Source of the DNA: an uncultured Spirochaetales bacterium
GTDB taxonomy: Bacteria > Spirochaetota > Spirochaetia > Sphaerochaetales > Sphaerochaetaceae
Assembly: GCA_949285145.1 (NCBI GenBank)
Contig: CASDXQ010000014.1
Span: 1-39,151 of the forward strand
Direction: 5' to 3'
DNA length: 39,151 nt
The position numbers and the translations under genes were made by a program. Position 1 is the first letter of the stretch. Every line of letters starts with the position of its first letter. Below the pieces are notes generated by a model. That model saw nothing but the letters and a program-made list of their open reading frames with translations, did no database searches and was not told where the DNA came from. Positions 9,491 through 15,243 of this stretch are shown piece after piece.

Positions 9491-11401
9491 TCATTTGTAA
9501 TATGAGCTTGCAGTGAACGAAGTGCTGCTGACAGCACTGGCGCTCATGGAACCCAGGAATTCCTTATTATTATGAGTTTTCCTCATCTTGTCAATCAAGA
9601 ATACCGACATGTCATTGTCATCCATATTCGACACCGCATTCCTCAGCAGCCAGAGACGAGCCAGTTCATCCTTCGTCAGAAGAAGATCATCACGGCGTGT
9701 TCCAGACTTTTTGAGATTGATTGCAGGGAACTTGCGGCTGTCAGCCATGCGTCTGTCAAGGACGATCTCATTGTTGCCAGTACCCTTGAACTCTTCAAAG
9801 ATGACTTCATCCATGCGGCTTCCCGTTTCGATCAGGGCTGTGGATATGATGGTAAGGGAACCGCCGTTCTCAATATTCCTCGCAGCGCCGAAAAAACGCT
9901 TGGGCTTGTGAAGAGCATTGGAATCAACACCTCCGGAAAGGATCTTTCCGGATGCAGGAACTGTCTGGTTGTAAGCGCGGGCAAGACGAGTGATGGAATC
10001 AAGGAGGATAACAACATCCTGATGCAGCTCGACAAGGCGTTTGGCCTTCTCTATGACCATTTCTGCTACCTGAACATGACGTGTGGCCTGCTCATCAAAT
10101 GTGGATGCCACAACTTCTGCCTTTACATTGCGTCTCATGTCCGTAACCTCTTCCGGACGTTCATCAACAAGCAGGACAATAAGCTTCACCTCAGGATGGT
10201 TCGTGGTTATTGCGTTTGCGATTTTCTGCATGAGGACAGTCTTTCCGGTTCTTGGAGGTGCAACTATCAGGGAACGCTGCCCTTTTCCTATCGGACAGAA
10301 AAGATCAACAACCCTTGTTGAAATATCCATTTCATCCGGATTATCCGGAGAGGAGGGATACTCAAGATGAAGTTTCTCATCCGGGAAAAGCGGGGTGAGC
10401 GAATCAAAAGGAACACGGAGCTTTGCTTCCTGTGGACTCAGTCCGTTCACAGTGATCACCCTGATCATCGCAATGAACCTCTCGTTGTCACGCGGCGAAC
10501 GCACCTGTCCGTAAACAGTATCACCGGTTCTCAGGCCGCAGGTCTTTATCATATTGTGGGAAACATAGACATCCTCAGTTCCGCCGATATAACTGTTCAC
10601 TGCATATCTTATGAGACCATAGCCTTCGCTGAGGACTTCAAGGACACCCTCGGTCATCAGGGCGCCTCCGGATGCGGCATGCAGCTTGGCCATCTCACGG
10701 ATCAGATCCTGTTTGCGGCAGTCGAGAATCGTATCTTCGCCTATTCCCTTCTCACGCGCAAGCGAGCGCAGGGTGTCAAGAGGGAGAACAGTGAGATCGG
10801 AGATGAAAAGCTTAGGAGCATCAGGATTCTCATCAAGATTCACGTCAGGAACAGCAGGCTCTGTCTGTTTCTGGATCTTGTCACCCTTCTTGCCTTTCTT
10901 CTGGAATTTTGAATAGCGGTTTTTCCTCTCACCTCCGCTCTGTCCCTGGTTATCATCCGCACTTTCTGCGGAATCTTCTTCAGCAGCGGCCTCTGCATTC
11001 TGTGATGATGCAGTCTCTGCGTCATATCTGCTTTGCGCAGCAGCTTCCCTATCATCTGATGCTTCATAAACTTTATCAGATGCTGCTTCTCCAGCATTCT
11101 CCGTCATCCGGACAGCAACTTCCGCCTCAGCGGGAGGTGCGGCGTTTTCATCATTTTGGAAAAGATCCGGCGTGGAATCTTCCTTTTCACTTATTTTCAC
11201 ATTTTTAGGCTTTCTGCCCCTTCTGCGCGGAGCCGGAGCATCATCTGGGACACGCTTCTCTTCAGCCTGAGAAGCTTCTCCGTCTTTTGCTTTCACTTTC
11301 ACCTTGACACTGCGAGTTTTACGCACTACCTTCACCTTTCTGGCAGCTGCGTTTTCGTTACCTGCCTGTTCTTCACTTTCAAACAATTCGTCTGAGGACA
11401 C
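9491..11401 (-). CDS. rho: Transcription termination factor Rho with long N-terminal extension
   Basis: Hexameric RNA helicase that ends transcription. Core domains: Rho N-terminal helical domain (about residues 200-240), cold-shock RNA-binding domain ([14 protein letters not shown]), and the RecA-like ATPase with Walker A APPRTGKT near residue 385, Walker [17 protein letters not shown] and R-loop [23 protein letters not shown]. Before the core is a roughly 190-residue insertion-like tail alternating basic ([34 protein letters not shown]) and acidic Ala/Glu/Asp stretches, apparently disordered. Start: GTG at 11401 with GGAG eight bases upstream is preferred; a TTG at 11434 lies in an AT-rich stretch without a ribosome site. 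636 residues against about 420 in E. coli. Promoter and a 112-base leader lie upstream. Confidence 0.95.
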
Positions 11402-11490
11402 CTGGTAAACTCCAAAATTATATAAAGATTTCAATTTCTGCTTTTTTATCAGGAAAAAATAATCTGTATGGATTTATTATTGCCGAATAA

Positions 11491-11664: not shown

Positions 11665-12909
11665 CTAAATATATTTCCAGCTGCCGCTTATTGCTGCAAC
11701 ATCACGTCCTGAAAGGTATTCCCTCATGAGAATGAGAGCTGCATTCACACTCTTGCGGCGCACAGATTCCCTTCCCCATGAAGAGAAATGGAGACACACA
11801 GCACAGCTTTCCCTGTTTTCCGCACTGAAAGAAAAACACACAGTACCCGCTTTCTTTGCCTCGCTCTCGCCGGGACCTGCGACACCGGTGATGGAAAAAG
11901 AGCAATTGCTGCCTGTAAGAGCCAGAACTCCCTCGCTCATTTCCATTGCGCATTCATTGCTTACTGCGCCGTACTTTTCTATCGTCTGTTTTCTGACTGA
12001 AAGAACATTCTCCTTGACTTCATTGGAATAGCTGACAACAGAACCGCAGAAAAAAGAGGAAGAGCCGGCAAGATGTGTCAGCATTGCCGAAGCAAGCCCT
12101 CCCGTACAGCTTTCCGCACAGGAAATTGTCAGATTCTTTTCCCTGAGCACTCCGGCAAGAAGTTCAAGAGCCGAAGTGTTTCCATCGGCAATGAGCTGAC
12201 TGCCGCACATGTGCCTCAGTTTTGAGACCGCATCATCCTTATCCTGATCGCTCCCGCCCGACAGGTATAATGATATCTTGTAATCCTGAAAACGTGTTGC
12301 CCAGGAAAGAGAGGGGTTTATCAGGCGGGTGAGGTCTTCAAGCTTGGCTTCAGCTATGATGAAAGAAGAATATTCACGCCTCTCCTCTTCTCCGCGCCCC
12401 GAAAGCTCACGGAGAAGCGGCACCACCACATCTTCAAACATCGGATTCATTTCCCCGGGCGGACCGGGAAGGGAGATAATAAGACAGCCATCAGGGGTTC
12501 TTCCGTAAAAGCCGTCCGCAGTACCGTTATTATTCTTTATTCTCGTAAAACCGCGCGGGATATAACATTGTTTTTCATTTGCGCCTTTCAGCCTGTCGCC
12601 GAGCTTCCTGGACAGATCATTCCAGCTGTCAGAATTCACTTCAAGAGGACAGCATGCGACATCTGCAATACACTGCCGTGTAATATCATCGCTTGTAGGC
12701 CCCAGCCCGCCTGTAATGATCACGATATCATTTTTTCTGACTATCGCAGAAAGGATACTTTCAATTGTCCCGTCGTCAGGGACTGCGGCAATCTGGCTCA
12801 CATGAATGCCTAAGGCAGTCAGACTCCTGCCCACAAGCTGCGAATGCTTATCCTGAATTATGCCTCGTGTCAGCTCGCTGCCTACCAGAATGAGCGCTGC
12901 ATTATCCAT
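11665..12909 (-). CDS. cinA: CinA-family protein with NMN amidohydrolase domain
   Basis: Two-domain protein. The N-terminal MoCF-like/COG1058 domain (residues 1-170) begins ALILVGSELTRGIIQDKHS and has TGGLGPTSDD, linked to pyrophosphatase action on ADP-ribose and similar compounds. The C-terminal PncC/CinA domain (about 245-400) has CAESCTGGLASAMLT and SITGVAGPG, the family signature of nicotinamide-nucleotide amidohydrolase. Together they recycle pyridine nucleotides; the competence link of the name applies to some Gram-positives only. Full length at 414 residues. The ATG at 12909 lies eight bases inside lnt, with AAGGA ten bases upstream, so it is the last gene of an rpsT-HU-lnt-cinA series. 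Confidence 0.95.
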   Translation of the reverse strand: MDNAALILVGSELTRGIIQDKHSQLVGRSLTALGIHVSQIAAVPDDGTIESILSAIVRKNDIVIITGGLGPTSDDITRQCIADVACCPLEVNSDSWNDLSRKLGDRLKGANEKQCYIPRGFTRIKNNNGTADGFYGRTPDGCLIISLPGPPGEMNPMFEDVVVPLLRELSGRGEEERREYSSFIIAEAKLEDLTRLINPSLSWATRFQDYKISLYLSGGSDQDKDDAVSKLRHMCGSQLIADGNTSALELLAGVLREKNLTISCAESCTGGLASAMLTHLAGSSSFFCGSVVSYSNEVKENVLSVRKQTIEKYGAVSNECAMEMSEGVLALTGSNCSFSITGVAGPGESEAKKAGTVCFSFSAENRESCAVCLHFSSWGRESVRRKSVNAALILMREYLSGRDVAAISGSWKYI

Positions 12910-14596
12910 TCCGTTCTTCCTTCTTACGTGAAACTTTCCTGTATGACATCAGGCCAAGTCCGGCCGCCACGGATACAGCTGCAGCTGCAATCGAAACATA
13001 GGCAAAAAGGTCGGTATGCGCTACATAGAATGTGTAATCATCCGCACTCTTTGTCTCGTAAACAGGCACGTCATATATATGATAGGTCATCTTGAACTGT
13101 TCCACAGGATCCACAATCTCTCCGGTGGGCAGAATCATGCATGTATAGCCGCTGTTCGTGGATCTGACCATGGTCTTGCGTGTCTCGACTGAACGGAACG
13201 TTGCTATTGCGGCATGCTGCACAGCAGCTTCGGCGCATCCCGACCAGCGGTCATTCGTCATGTTTATTATGAGATCCGCACCGTTTCTCACAAAATCAGC
13301 AGAGATATCACCGAACACATCCTCATAACAGATCGGAGTTGAGAATTTCACTCCGTCGCTGTCAAACACAACCGGCTCATCGCCTTTCTCCCACCAGTTG
13401 AAGTCAAGAGATACAAGTATGTTGTAAAGCCAGGGCATGCTGTCCTTATAAGGGAAGTGTTCTGTGAAAGGAACAAGATGCTGTTTTGCATAGCTCTGTT
13501 TTATCGTACCATCATCAAAAAGGATGACTGTATTGTAGTCGGTTCTGTTGAGTTCCCCGGTGACGGGGTCTATAGGCGGTTTGCTTTCATCTTTCAACAC
13601 ACCGCGGGGATTGCCGGTGAGAAGAGGCTTGCCCAGTTCTTCTGCGAAAGAAACGAAACGGCGTACAAGCTCTGCAGTTTCGCTGTTTCCGATTGTGTTG
13701 CCCACTCCTTCATAAGAGTAATTCATATGCCACCAGACAGAAGGGACAAATGCAGTCTCTGACCATACTACGATATCAGGATCATAGCGCAGGGCTTCCA
13801 GCGACAGACGCCTCAGATTGTTGAAGTTCTTGAGATAAGTCTGATATCCGCCTTCCCATGAATCGTGATTGTGCTGTATCGTCGCAACACTCCAGTATCT
13901 GTCCGCCTCTCTATCCTCCTGAGAACTCAGAGATACGAATCCGTATCCGATCCACAGTGCAAAAAGAAGTGCATAAACAATTATGAATGCCAGACTTTTC
14001 CTGAAGTAATGCAGAATATCCGGATCCGATCCCGTGAATATGCCAGCCACATAATATCCAAGCCATGCCTGCGGCAGAATCATCATTATGATAATTCCCC
14101 AGATGCCTGTGATATCGGCAATCTGAATAAGAGGCAGATACTCGTAAAGAGCATAACATATGGTTCCATATGGATAACCAGCAAACCAGTTCTGCGACAG
14201 ATACGCATAGGCGGCCCATATGAAAGCCTGAGGGATGAAAGCGAACCCTTCAAAAGCACTGGCTGCAACCTTGAGCGCCAGGAAAAGAAGCAGCATTTCG
14301 CCGCCTTTTATGATTGTCACAATATAAATTGCCCCGGGGTGGAAACCGGGCAGCCAGTAATTGAAAAAACAGTAGAATGTGACTCCGAAGAGAAAACCAT
14401 ATGCCCATACAGCCTTGTAGCTTGTGTTCCTGATTACTGCAAACACCGGTATGAGCGCAAAGAAGGCAATCCAGCCCCACCCCGAACTTGTTACGAAACC
14501 GGGGAATGCAAGAGACAGGATGAACGCACTGATAATTAAAACCAAAACCTCAGAACAATACGTTCTGAGGCCTTTTCTGACATAAAAGTTCTTCAA
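12902..14596 (-). CDS. lnt: Apolipoprotein N-acyltransferase
   Basis: Inner-membrane enzyme adding the third acyl chain to lipoproteins. Six or more membrane helices fill residues 15-225, followed by the nitrilase-like periplasmic domain with the catalytic triad Glu280 (VVWSETAF), Lys371 (YAKQHLVPFTEHFPY) and Cys423 (PICYEDVFG), and a last helix near 530-550. At 564 residues it is somewhat longer than the E. coli enzyme. The best start is a TTG at 14596 with GGAG seven bases upstream inside the end of the HU gene. That start places a perfect terminator hairpin within codons 9-17, which is unusual. Starts beyond the hairpin have no ribosome site and would clip the first helix. Its presence implies triacylated lipoproteins. 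Confidence 0.95.
   Translation of the reverse strand: MKNFYVRKGLRTYCSEVLVLIISAFILSLAFPGFVTSSGWGWIAFFALIPVFAVIRNTSYKAVWAYGFLFGVTFYCFFNYWLPGFHPGAIYIVTIIKGGEMLLLFLALKVAASAFEGFAFIPQAFIWAAYAYLSQNWFAGYPYGTICYALYEYLPLIQIADITGIWGIIIMMILPQAWLGYYVAGIFTGSDPDILHYFRKSLAFIIVYALLFALWIGYGFVSLSSQEDREADRYWSVATIQHNHDSWEGGYQTYLKNFNNLRRLSLEALRYDPDIVVWSETAFVPSVWWHMNYSYEGVGNTIGNSETAELVRRFVSFAEELGKPLLTGNPRGVLKDESKPPIDPVTGELNRTDYNTVILFDDGTIKQSYAKQHLVPFTEHFPYKDSMPWLYNILVSLDFNWWEKGDEPVVFDSDGVKFSTPICYEDVFGDISADFVRNGADLIINMTNDRWSGCAEAAVQHAAIATFRSVETRKTMVRSTNSGYTCMILPTGEIVDPVEQFKMTYHIYDVPVYETKSADDYTFYVAHTDLFAYVSIAAAAVSVAAGLGLMSYRKVSRKKEERNG
14538..14570 (-). terminator. Intrinsic terminator inside the start of lnt
   Basis: On the minus strand CCTCAGAAC (14570-14562) pairs perfectly with GTTCTGAGG (14556-14548), nine pairs with a five-base loop, followed by TTTTGGTTTT. 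It lies 42 bases past the HU stop, exactly where a terminator for the rpsT-HU transcript would be expected, but within the lnt reading frame from its TTG start. Confidence 0.75.
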
Positions 14597-14611
14597 TTAA
14601 AGCTCCGACAA

Positions 14612-14932
14612 TCATTCAAAATCTCTGGAACCGGAATCTCTGAGATTCCATACTGCATCTTTCAGCTCCTTGCCGGGGCGGAAGATCGCAACTCCATGTG
14701 TTTCAACGGAAACGAGATCACCGGTTTTGGGATTCCGGGCTTTCTCACGGCCTTTGCGGGTTCTGATTTCAAATGTTCCGAAGCCCCTGAGCTCAATCAC
14801 GCGATCCTCTTTGAGACCATCCTTTATCTCTTCGAAAAGTTCATCGATGACTTCATGAATATCTGTACGTGAAAGTCCGAGCTTGTTGTGCAGGCTTTCA
14901 ATCATCGCGGCTTTTGTTAATTTATCTTCCAT
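14612..14932 (-). CDS. HU/IHF-family DNA-binding protein
   Basis: Small nucleoid protein that bends and compacts DNA. The 106-residue chain has the family layout: helices at 1-45, then GFGTFEIRTRKGREKARNPKTGD, the conserved beta-arm with the Arg-Asn-Pro tip, and FRPGKELKDAV. A short tail (NLRDSGSRDFE) follows the core. Position alone cannot separate HU from IHF-alpha-like; the arm sequence GREKARNPKTG is shared by both. GGAG lies eight bases upstream of the ATG at 14932. It sits 50 bases after rpsT and is followed by the terminator that overlaps lnt. Confidence 0.92.
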   Translation of the reverse strand: MEDKLTKAAMIESLHNKLGLSRTDIHEVIDELFEEIKDGLKEDRVIELRGFGTFEIRTRKGREKARNPKTGDLVSVETHGVAIFRPGKELKDAVWNLRDSGSRDFE

Positions 14933-14982: not shown

Positions 14983-15243
14983 TCAGGCAAGTTTTGCGAA
15001 AGCCTTGTACATGCGGGACTTTTTCCTGCTTGCAGTGTTTCTGTGAAGCACACCATTACCTGCGGCAGTATCGAGAAGCTTGAAGCTGAGAGCCATTGCC
15101 TCCTGTGCAGCAGCCTTATCCTTTGCCGCTACGGCAGCTTCGAACTTCTTGATTGCTGTACGAACTGTACTCTTTGCCTGACGATTATGCATTCTGCGCT
15201 TTGCGTTCTGGCGTTCTCTCTTTTCAGCAGATTTATTAGACAC
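14983..15243 (-). CDS. rpsT: 30S ribosomal protein S20
   Basis: Small-subunit protein binding the 5' domain and helix 44 of 16S rRNA. The 86-residue product is Lys/Arg/Ala-rich, opens SNKSAEKRERQNAKRRMHNR and ends HRNTASRKKSRMYKAFAKL, which is typical of the family. The start codon is GTG at 15243 with GGAGG six bases upstream. E. coli rpsT also uses a non-ATG start (TTG) and is controlled at translation, so a weak start may serve the same purpose here; that is inference. Its promoter and a short leader hairpin lie at 15291-15343. Confidence 0.96.
   Translation of the reverse strand: MSNKSAEKRERQNAKRRMHNRQAKSTVRTAIKKFEAAVAAKDKAAAQEAMALSFKLLDTAAGNGVLHRNTASRKKSRMYKAFAKLA

Follow-up and report, generated by a model that had tools for sequence, protein, structure and literature searches.

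Why should a hairpin with the features of an intrinsic terminator lie within the first codons of lnt, just behind the genes of a ribosomal protein and a HU-like protein? The question is raised by a stretch of 39,151 nucleotides from an uncultured Spirochaetales bacterium of the Sphaerochaetaceae (assembly GCA_949285145.1, contig CASDXQ010000014.1, positions 1 to 39,151), which as a whole is called the window here. The order of the genes on its minus strand is rpsT, HU, lnt, cinA, rho. The rpsT gene for ribosomal protein S20 (14983-15243; TIGR00029, 92 bits, cut-off 33) has a GTG start according to a mechanical ORF call, and is followed by a gene for a HU/IHF-family DNA-binding protein (14612-14932), the best model of which is IHF-alpha with 83.7 bits, under the cut-off of 111. 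Directly downstream of HU lies lnt (12902-14596; TIGR00546, 272.1 bits, cut-off 132.9), which encodes an apolipoprotein N-acyltransferase of 564 amino acids with a TTG start. The end of lnt overlaps by 8 nt with cinA (11665-12909; TIGR00200, 254.8 bits, cut-off 243.15), and the next long ORF downstream of cinA encodes the transcription termination factor Rho (9491-11434; TIGR00767, 646.9 bits, cut-off 509.45).

A preliminary description of this DNA had claimed a 9-bp stem with a five-base loop and a U-run in codons 9-17 of lnt as read from the TTG, and this hairpin is indeed present at 14570-14538 and lies within the lnt reading frame, so that its existence at the beginning of the gene is confirmed. 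On the minus strand the core stem-loop reads CCTCAGAAC-GTATT-GTTCTGAGG (14570-14548, 9 bp, 5-nt loop), the 5' arm opening with base 3 of codon 9 (GGC) and the 3' arm closing with base 1 of codon 17 (GTT), when codons are numbered from the TTG at 14596-14594. An extended stem (AAGG...TTTT, 14574-14544) comprises 14 pairs with a loop of 3 according to the scanner, and with -13.3 kcal/mol for the core stem and 9-14 pairs the element is a stable, G+C-containing RNA hairpin. From the end of the HU stop codon (14614-14612) it is 42 nt to the start of the stem, which is followed by the U-tract TTTTGGTTTT (14547-14538). This tract overlaps codons for hydrophobic residues in what, as read from the sequence, is presumably the first transmembrane helix. 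The TTG also has the ribosome site that had been ascribed to it, a Shine-Dalgarno-like GGAG at 14606-14603 with a 6-nt spacer, and a TAA stands in frame immediately before the TTG, which therefore makes an in-frame start further upstream impossible. A start of Lnt downstream of the hairpin is very probably not used, since both the reading frame and the peptide that it encodes are kept (LRTxxSEV in the window, with variants in relatives) and all 90 lnt orthologues compared have a possible start codon 5' of the stem.

The hairpin is kept in relatives, a check that the preliminary description had proposed. Within the genus lnt was found in 15 of 16 genomes and within the family in 136 of 139, the order comprising the same 139 genomes. 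From these 136 loci, 90 orthologues belonging to 20 genera were compared over their N-terminal part, and they align without gaps when anchored at a conserved Glu codon. When the 14 pairs of the window hairpin were scored in each locus, a mean of 12.6 pairs was observed versus 8.5 expected from synonymous codons, and 81 of the 90 loci have p<=0.05 against this synonymous null, the p-values ignoring relatedness. Among the nine loci with p>0.05, seven belong to genera classed as hairpin-lost, a set made up of every locus read from g4, g8, g15 and g20 plus one of the two from g5; the other two (L072 and L093, genus g10) keep 12/14 pairs with p-values of 0.09 and 0.07. As to the gene context, HU was detected upstream of lnt in 88/90 loci, and of the two others one is ended by the contig edge and one has rpsT directly 5' of lnt (L090, G016, genus g2), where HU is absent and the stem is kept. 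A motif search in eight relatives found rho behind lnt in seven, six of them with cinA also detected and one with rho alone; in the eighth, L271 (G122) of a hairpin-lost genus, rho was not found behind lnt. Judged from these comparisons, the hairpin extends through the family and predates the genus.

A covariance model built on these loci matches 132 of the 139 family genomes at E<=0.01, counted wherever in the genome the match lies. Its scores are weak in g4, g8, g15 and g20, whose rows belong to the model, and no match was obtained in G003, G018, G087, G088 and three g22 genomes. Four matches outside lnt (L125-L128, in G304, G272, G005 and G011) turned out on reading to be other hairpins. 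A scan of 84,980 species genomes with the pattern CCTCAGRACN5GTTCTGAGGT yielded 86 stretches, 84 of which lie in a lnt-like frame by a motif rule, 83 of these 84 with a HU-like sequence upstream. The records are those of Sphaerochaeta, Sphaerochaetaceae and Candidatus Ornithospirochaeta, most of the metagenome-assembled genomes being named only as Spirochaetales or Spirochaetaceae, and include Sphaerochaeta halotolerans (L188), Sphaerochaetaceae (L167) and Candidatus Aphodenecus pullistercoris (L191). Two stretches, in records titled Taklimakanibacter (L173) and Lachnospiraceae (L232), carry the exact motif outside lnt, which by a rough estimate is about the number expected by chance. One lnt-like locus stands under a Sutterellaceae title (L176) and is perhaps a mis-binned contig.

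What has been kept in these loci is above all the pairing. In 86 distinct rows 90.0% of the cells are paired versus 33-56% in slid registers, and covariation amounts to 0.306 versus 0.209 +/- 0.008 after shuffling. Two-sided changes occur at 8/14 pairs (5.6 in shuffles, 11/500 of which reach 8) and in 79 cells versus 26.7 in shuffles, a number reached by 0/500. On a tree of 88 loci, for the building of which the hairpin codons were left out, parsimony counts 29 two-sided changes that preserve pairing versus 6-9 for slid partners; it also gives 43 pair breaks, 26 of them at three end pairs. Covariation among relatives is strongest for the pair 14573/14545 (A-U, G-C, C-G): the corresponding alignment columns 15/43 contain AU in 25 of 86 rows, GC in 18, CG in 16, GU in 4 and UG in one, the remaining 22 being unpaired. 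Furthermore, in a comparison of 30 full-length genes synonymous choice in lnt is most restricted at codons 9-16, which rank first among 556 windows (z 6.0). Their identity is 0.81 versus 0.32 expected, and CTC at codon 10, TCT at codon 15 and GAG at codon 16 are invariant in 30/30 genes. The compensatory changes thus support one helix, as is expected of a conserved structured cis-RNA, and the comparative sequence data give good support for a conserved RNA structure. A second Lnt, here Lnt2, is present in 12/16 genomes of the genus, 44-51% identical among the matches listed, and the genome of the window itself encodes one that is 50% identical (L002, G000:C17:8679-10226, minus strand). None of the 11 Lnt2 paralogues examined has the stem, with 5-10/14 pairs in register, and no HU-like motif was found in the stretch analysed upstream of these 11. 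A division of labour between the two Lnt enzymes is conceivable.

In a sample of the class, 32/248 genomes have a covariance-model match; outside the family, those in G304 and G272 are unrelated hairpins, and G141 and G167 (family f4) share the motif at the same lnt codons after HU. Folding was tested against synonymous nulls for 30 lnt loci from 40 outer-family genomes searched, and six loci were judged to bear a hairpin (L130-L133, L135, L148). The two f4 loci (L130, L131) have the exact motif with 13/14 pairs in both, yet reached p-values of only 0.295 and 0.055. Hairpins that are equivalent but differ in sequence occur in G166 and G140 of family f3 and in G154 of family f17 (p 0.015, 0.005 and 0.04, respectively); they score poorly as terminators. 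The f18 locus (G155, L148) forms a strong hairpin at the same codons of lnt. Its sequence is unrelated, 0 of 200 synonymous samples fold as well, and it is possibly convergent. L138 beats its null (p 0.005) but with another structure, L134 was rejected as a misplaced locus that is not a lnt start, and 22 of the 30 loci were no better than their nulls (p>0.05). Taken together, the alignments and folding tests show that the hairpin is kept in most Sphaerochaetaceae genera read and in some related families.

Is the conserved structure a terminator? Scored with our own simplified d'Aubenton-Carafa-type code, which allows one mismatch and no bulges, the window hairpin reaches 10.2. In the congener G013 10/74 gene ends score above 0 (median of the positives 16.6) and 0/250 random CDS windows, in the congener G008 with 58% GC 4/58 and 0/262, and in the window itself 2/14 and 0/56, respectively, gene ends having been scanned over a longer stretch than CDS windows. 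Among the first 100 nt of ORFs 0/154 and 0/159 score above 0 in two congeners, and 2/154 lie between -15 and 0. Since 10.2 is within the range of the gene-end terminators of G013 and neither CDS windows nor ORF starts exceed 0, the hairpin resembles a terminator whose strength is ordinary and whose location is unusual. A simple consensus scan of the window, which found 10 terminator-like sites versus 5.1 +/- 2.3 in shuffles, is alone not decisive.

Because the U-run overlaps hydrophobic codons, T counts were compared with the synonymous expectation, and T in the U-tract was in excess of codon choice in hairpin loci. At positions +3 to +11, 30 full-length loci show an excess of +1.40 and 52 other hairpin loci one of +1.37, versus -0.38 in eight loci of hairpin-lost genera (both g5 loci included) and +0.61 in 10 Lnt2 paralogues, in tests that ignore relatedness and to which short loci contribute thin codon tables. 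The values at +12 to +20 are +0.82, +0.84, +0.38 and -0.06, respectively. Farther in, the full-length loci give +0.37, +0.63, +0.31 and -0.10, with +0.63 at +30 to +38, and an excess of +1.02 in the 30 full-length loci is also present at -51 to -43, away from the tract; other genes of two congeners range from -0.03 to +0.24 at similar depth. Counted by genus at +3 to +14, T exceeds expectation in 14/15 hairpin genera (all except g19) and in 2/5 without hairpin (g8, g15); some of the T next to the stem is imposed by base pairing and by codons for hydrophobic residues. As the excess is found in hairpin loci and on average not in the eight hairpin-lost loci, it supports a role in termination, although one subclade combines the stem with a poor U-tract and only 34/90 orthologues score above 0 as terminators.

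We therefore favour, with moderate confidence, the reading that the stem-loop and U-rich tract, a second message in codons 8-20 of lnt, form an intrinsic-terminator-like attenuator embedded in an ORF, which would separate rpsT-HU from lnt-cinA and perhaps rho. Some of the RNA polymerases leaving rpsT-HU would be halted at the hairpin, which would give the rpsT-HU mRNA a 3' end, keep lnt-cinA and perhaps rho low and go along with a presumably high output of rpsT-HU. The start of the core stem lies beyond the usual extent of the ribosome initiation footprint. An initiating ribosome, with the stem 26 nt away, would thus not reach the core stem, and a ribosome that has advanced by a few codons would melt it. 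With the stem placed 26 nt into lnt, read-through would follow the initiation of lnt translation, and relief by lnt ribosomes is plausible from this geometry. The proposal in the preliminary description, by which most rpsT-HU transcripts would end at the hairpin and ribosomes on lnt might unfold it, is supported in part. As rho lies behind lnt in seven of the eight relatives, there is also the possibility that the dose of Rho is set at the lnt hairpin. Only tentatively do we extend this to a self-gated attenuator over several spirochaete families, in which polymerase would continue only once a ribosome has begun lnt, and transcription of lnt-cinA and possibly rho would be set by lnt initiation together with ribosomes arriving from HU. 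If true, coding and termination signals would have been co-selected over a long time across the family, and spirochaetes would offer a natural system for translation-gated transcription.

The alternative that survives best, rather unlikely as we judge it, is a stem that directs processing of the mRNA or protects its end, where an endoribonuclease would cut at the stem or nearby or an exonuclease would stop at it after decay of the lnt mRNA, leaving a stable rpsT-HU and a short-lived lnt mRNA. This would fit the pairing of both arms as the constrained feature, and it would fit seven congeneric loci (L005-L011) in which the stem is kept or even lengthened and the U-tract is degraded, TCTT or TCCT following GAGG instead of TTTT. 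All seven have a C at +5 and six have another at +6 opposite a G, so that the stem stays paired with a poor U-tract, and among them only L010 scores above 0 as a terminator. Since in addition only 34/90 orthologues have a score above 0 in our scheme without bulges, a simple terminator is in part disfavoured. Precedent comes from the cip-cel operon, where intergenic stem-loops direct cleavage and stability and set an unequal stoichiometry (PMC10311766); there cleavage has been demonstrated and the stem-loops are intergenic, whereas the lnt stem lies inside a CDS. However, a U excess after the stem is unnecessary for such a role, and lnt ribosomes would melt the stem on translated copies.

A hairpin acting on translation only, by slowing early elongation or by binding a repressor and thus keeping the dose of Lnt low, is unlikely. 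It would agree with the position of the stem, which begins 26 nt downstream of 33 of the 65 starts that have an SD, and with the TTG plus SD that is the best-supported start in 61/90 orthologues by a simple rule, starts that are in line with a low Lnt output. On the other hand, the stem begins past the usual initiation footprint, its distance from the start varies with a standard deviation of 15.9 nt, the 11 Lnt2 genes examined do without it, and the U excess would be left unexplained. Very improbable is a coincidence of coding, in which a conserved peptide and hydrophobic codons mimic a terminator: the peptide is fairly conserved and the hydrophobic codons are U-rich, which partly explains the U-tract, but for the stem this explanation is refuted by the synonymous nulls, the compensatory changes and its absence in Lnt2. 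Least credible of all is a DNA operator bound by a dimeric regulator, for even though the core arms in the window form a perfect inverted repeat and the exact pattern stands at a single place, lnt, in each of the 13/16 genus genomes that have it, 217 of 1083 paired cells (20%) are G-U and break the symmetry of the half-sites, and the sequence changes while pairing stays, so that the constraint is on RNA. The same restriction of the exact pattern to lnt led us to reject a regulon of this motif. Likewise rejected were a small out-of-frame peptide ending at the U-tract (MSEKASERIVLRFWF, translated by eye), whose ATG L006, L010 and L013 lack, a programmed frameshift, as by eye no conserved slippery run precedes the stem, and a sequestered internal Shine-Dalgarno sequence (GAGG in the 3' arm), for which no conserved start was seen by eye at the right distance.

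Among the open-licence papers listed for lnt and for Sphaerochaeta, no title or abstract opening concerned the lnt element, and no Term-seq or transcriptome data set of Treponema or Sphaerochaeta was among the records listed. The Lnt motif of Rfam (RF01711) sits in 5' UTRs. It takes its name from lnt, is a candidate RNA structure and is listed for Chlorobi (PMC2864571). The window has no RF01711 match at the gathering threshold and the region 14400-14720 none at E<=5; sub-threshold Rfam matches to SNORD20 and His_leader were discarded, as they are far under the cut-offs. Terminators inside operons set gene dosage, and E. coli has such attenuators in rplL-rpoB and rpsU-dnaG, where, as proposed for lnt, a terminator-like element separates a gene of ribosomal type from a gene of another kind downstream of it. 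The same likeness holds for the ioTTS of the archaeal RP-RNAP operon, with intra-operon termination below ribosomal-protein genes that was tested by experiment (PMC10450193). The lnt element, known here from comparative genomics, differs from these intra-operon terminators in that it lies inside the downstream CDS, is dual-coded and has a structure conserved over the family. RNA 3' ends inside ORFs as such are present in E. coli (PMC7815308), and in the spirochaete B. burgdorferi 59.1% of the 3' ends are ORF-internal, 15.2% of those with a significant intrinsic-terminator score (PMC10319736); the main text of the latter does not contain the words lnt or hbb. Those ends were mapped, each set in a single species, whereas the lnt site is recognised by its comparative signature.
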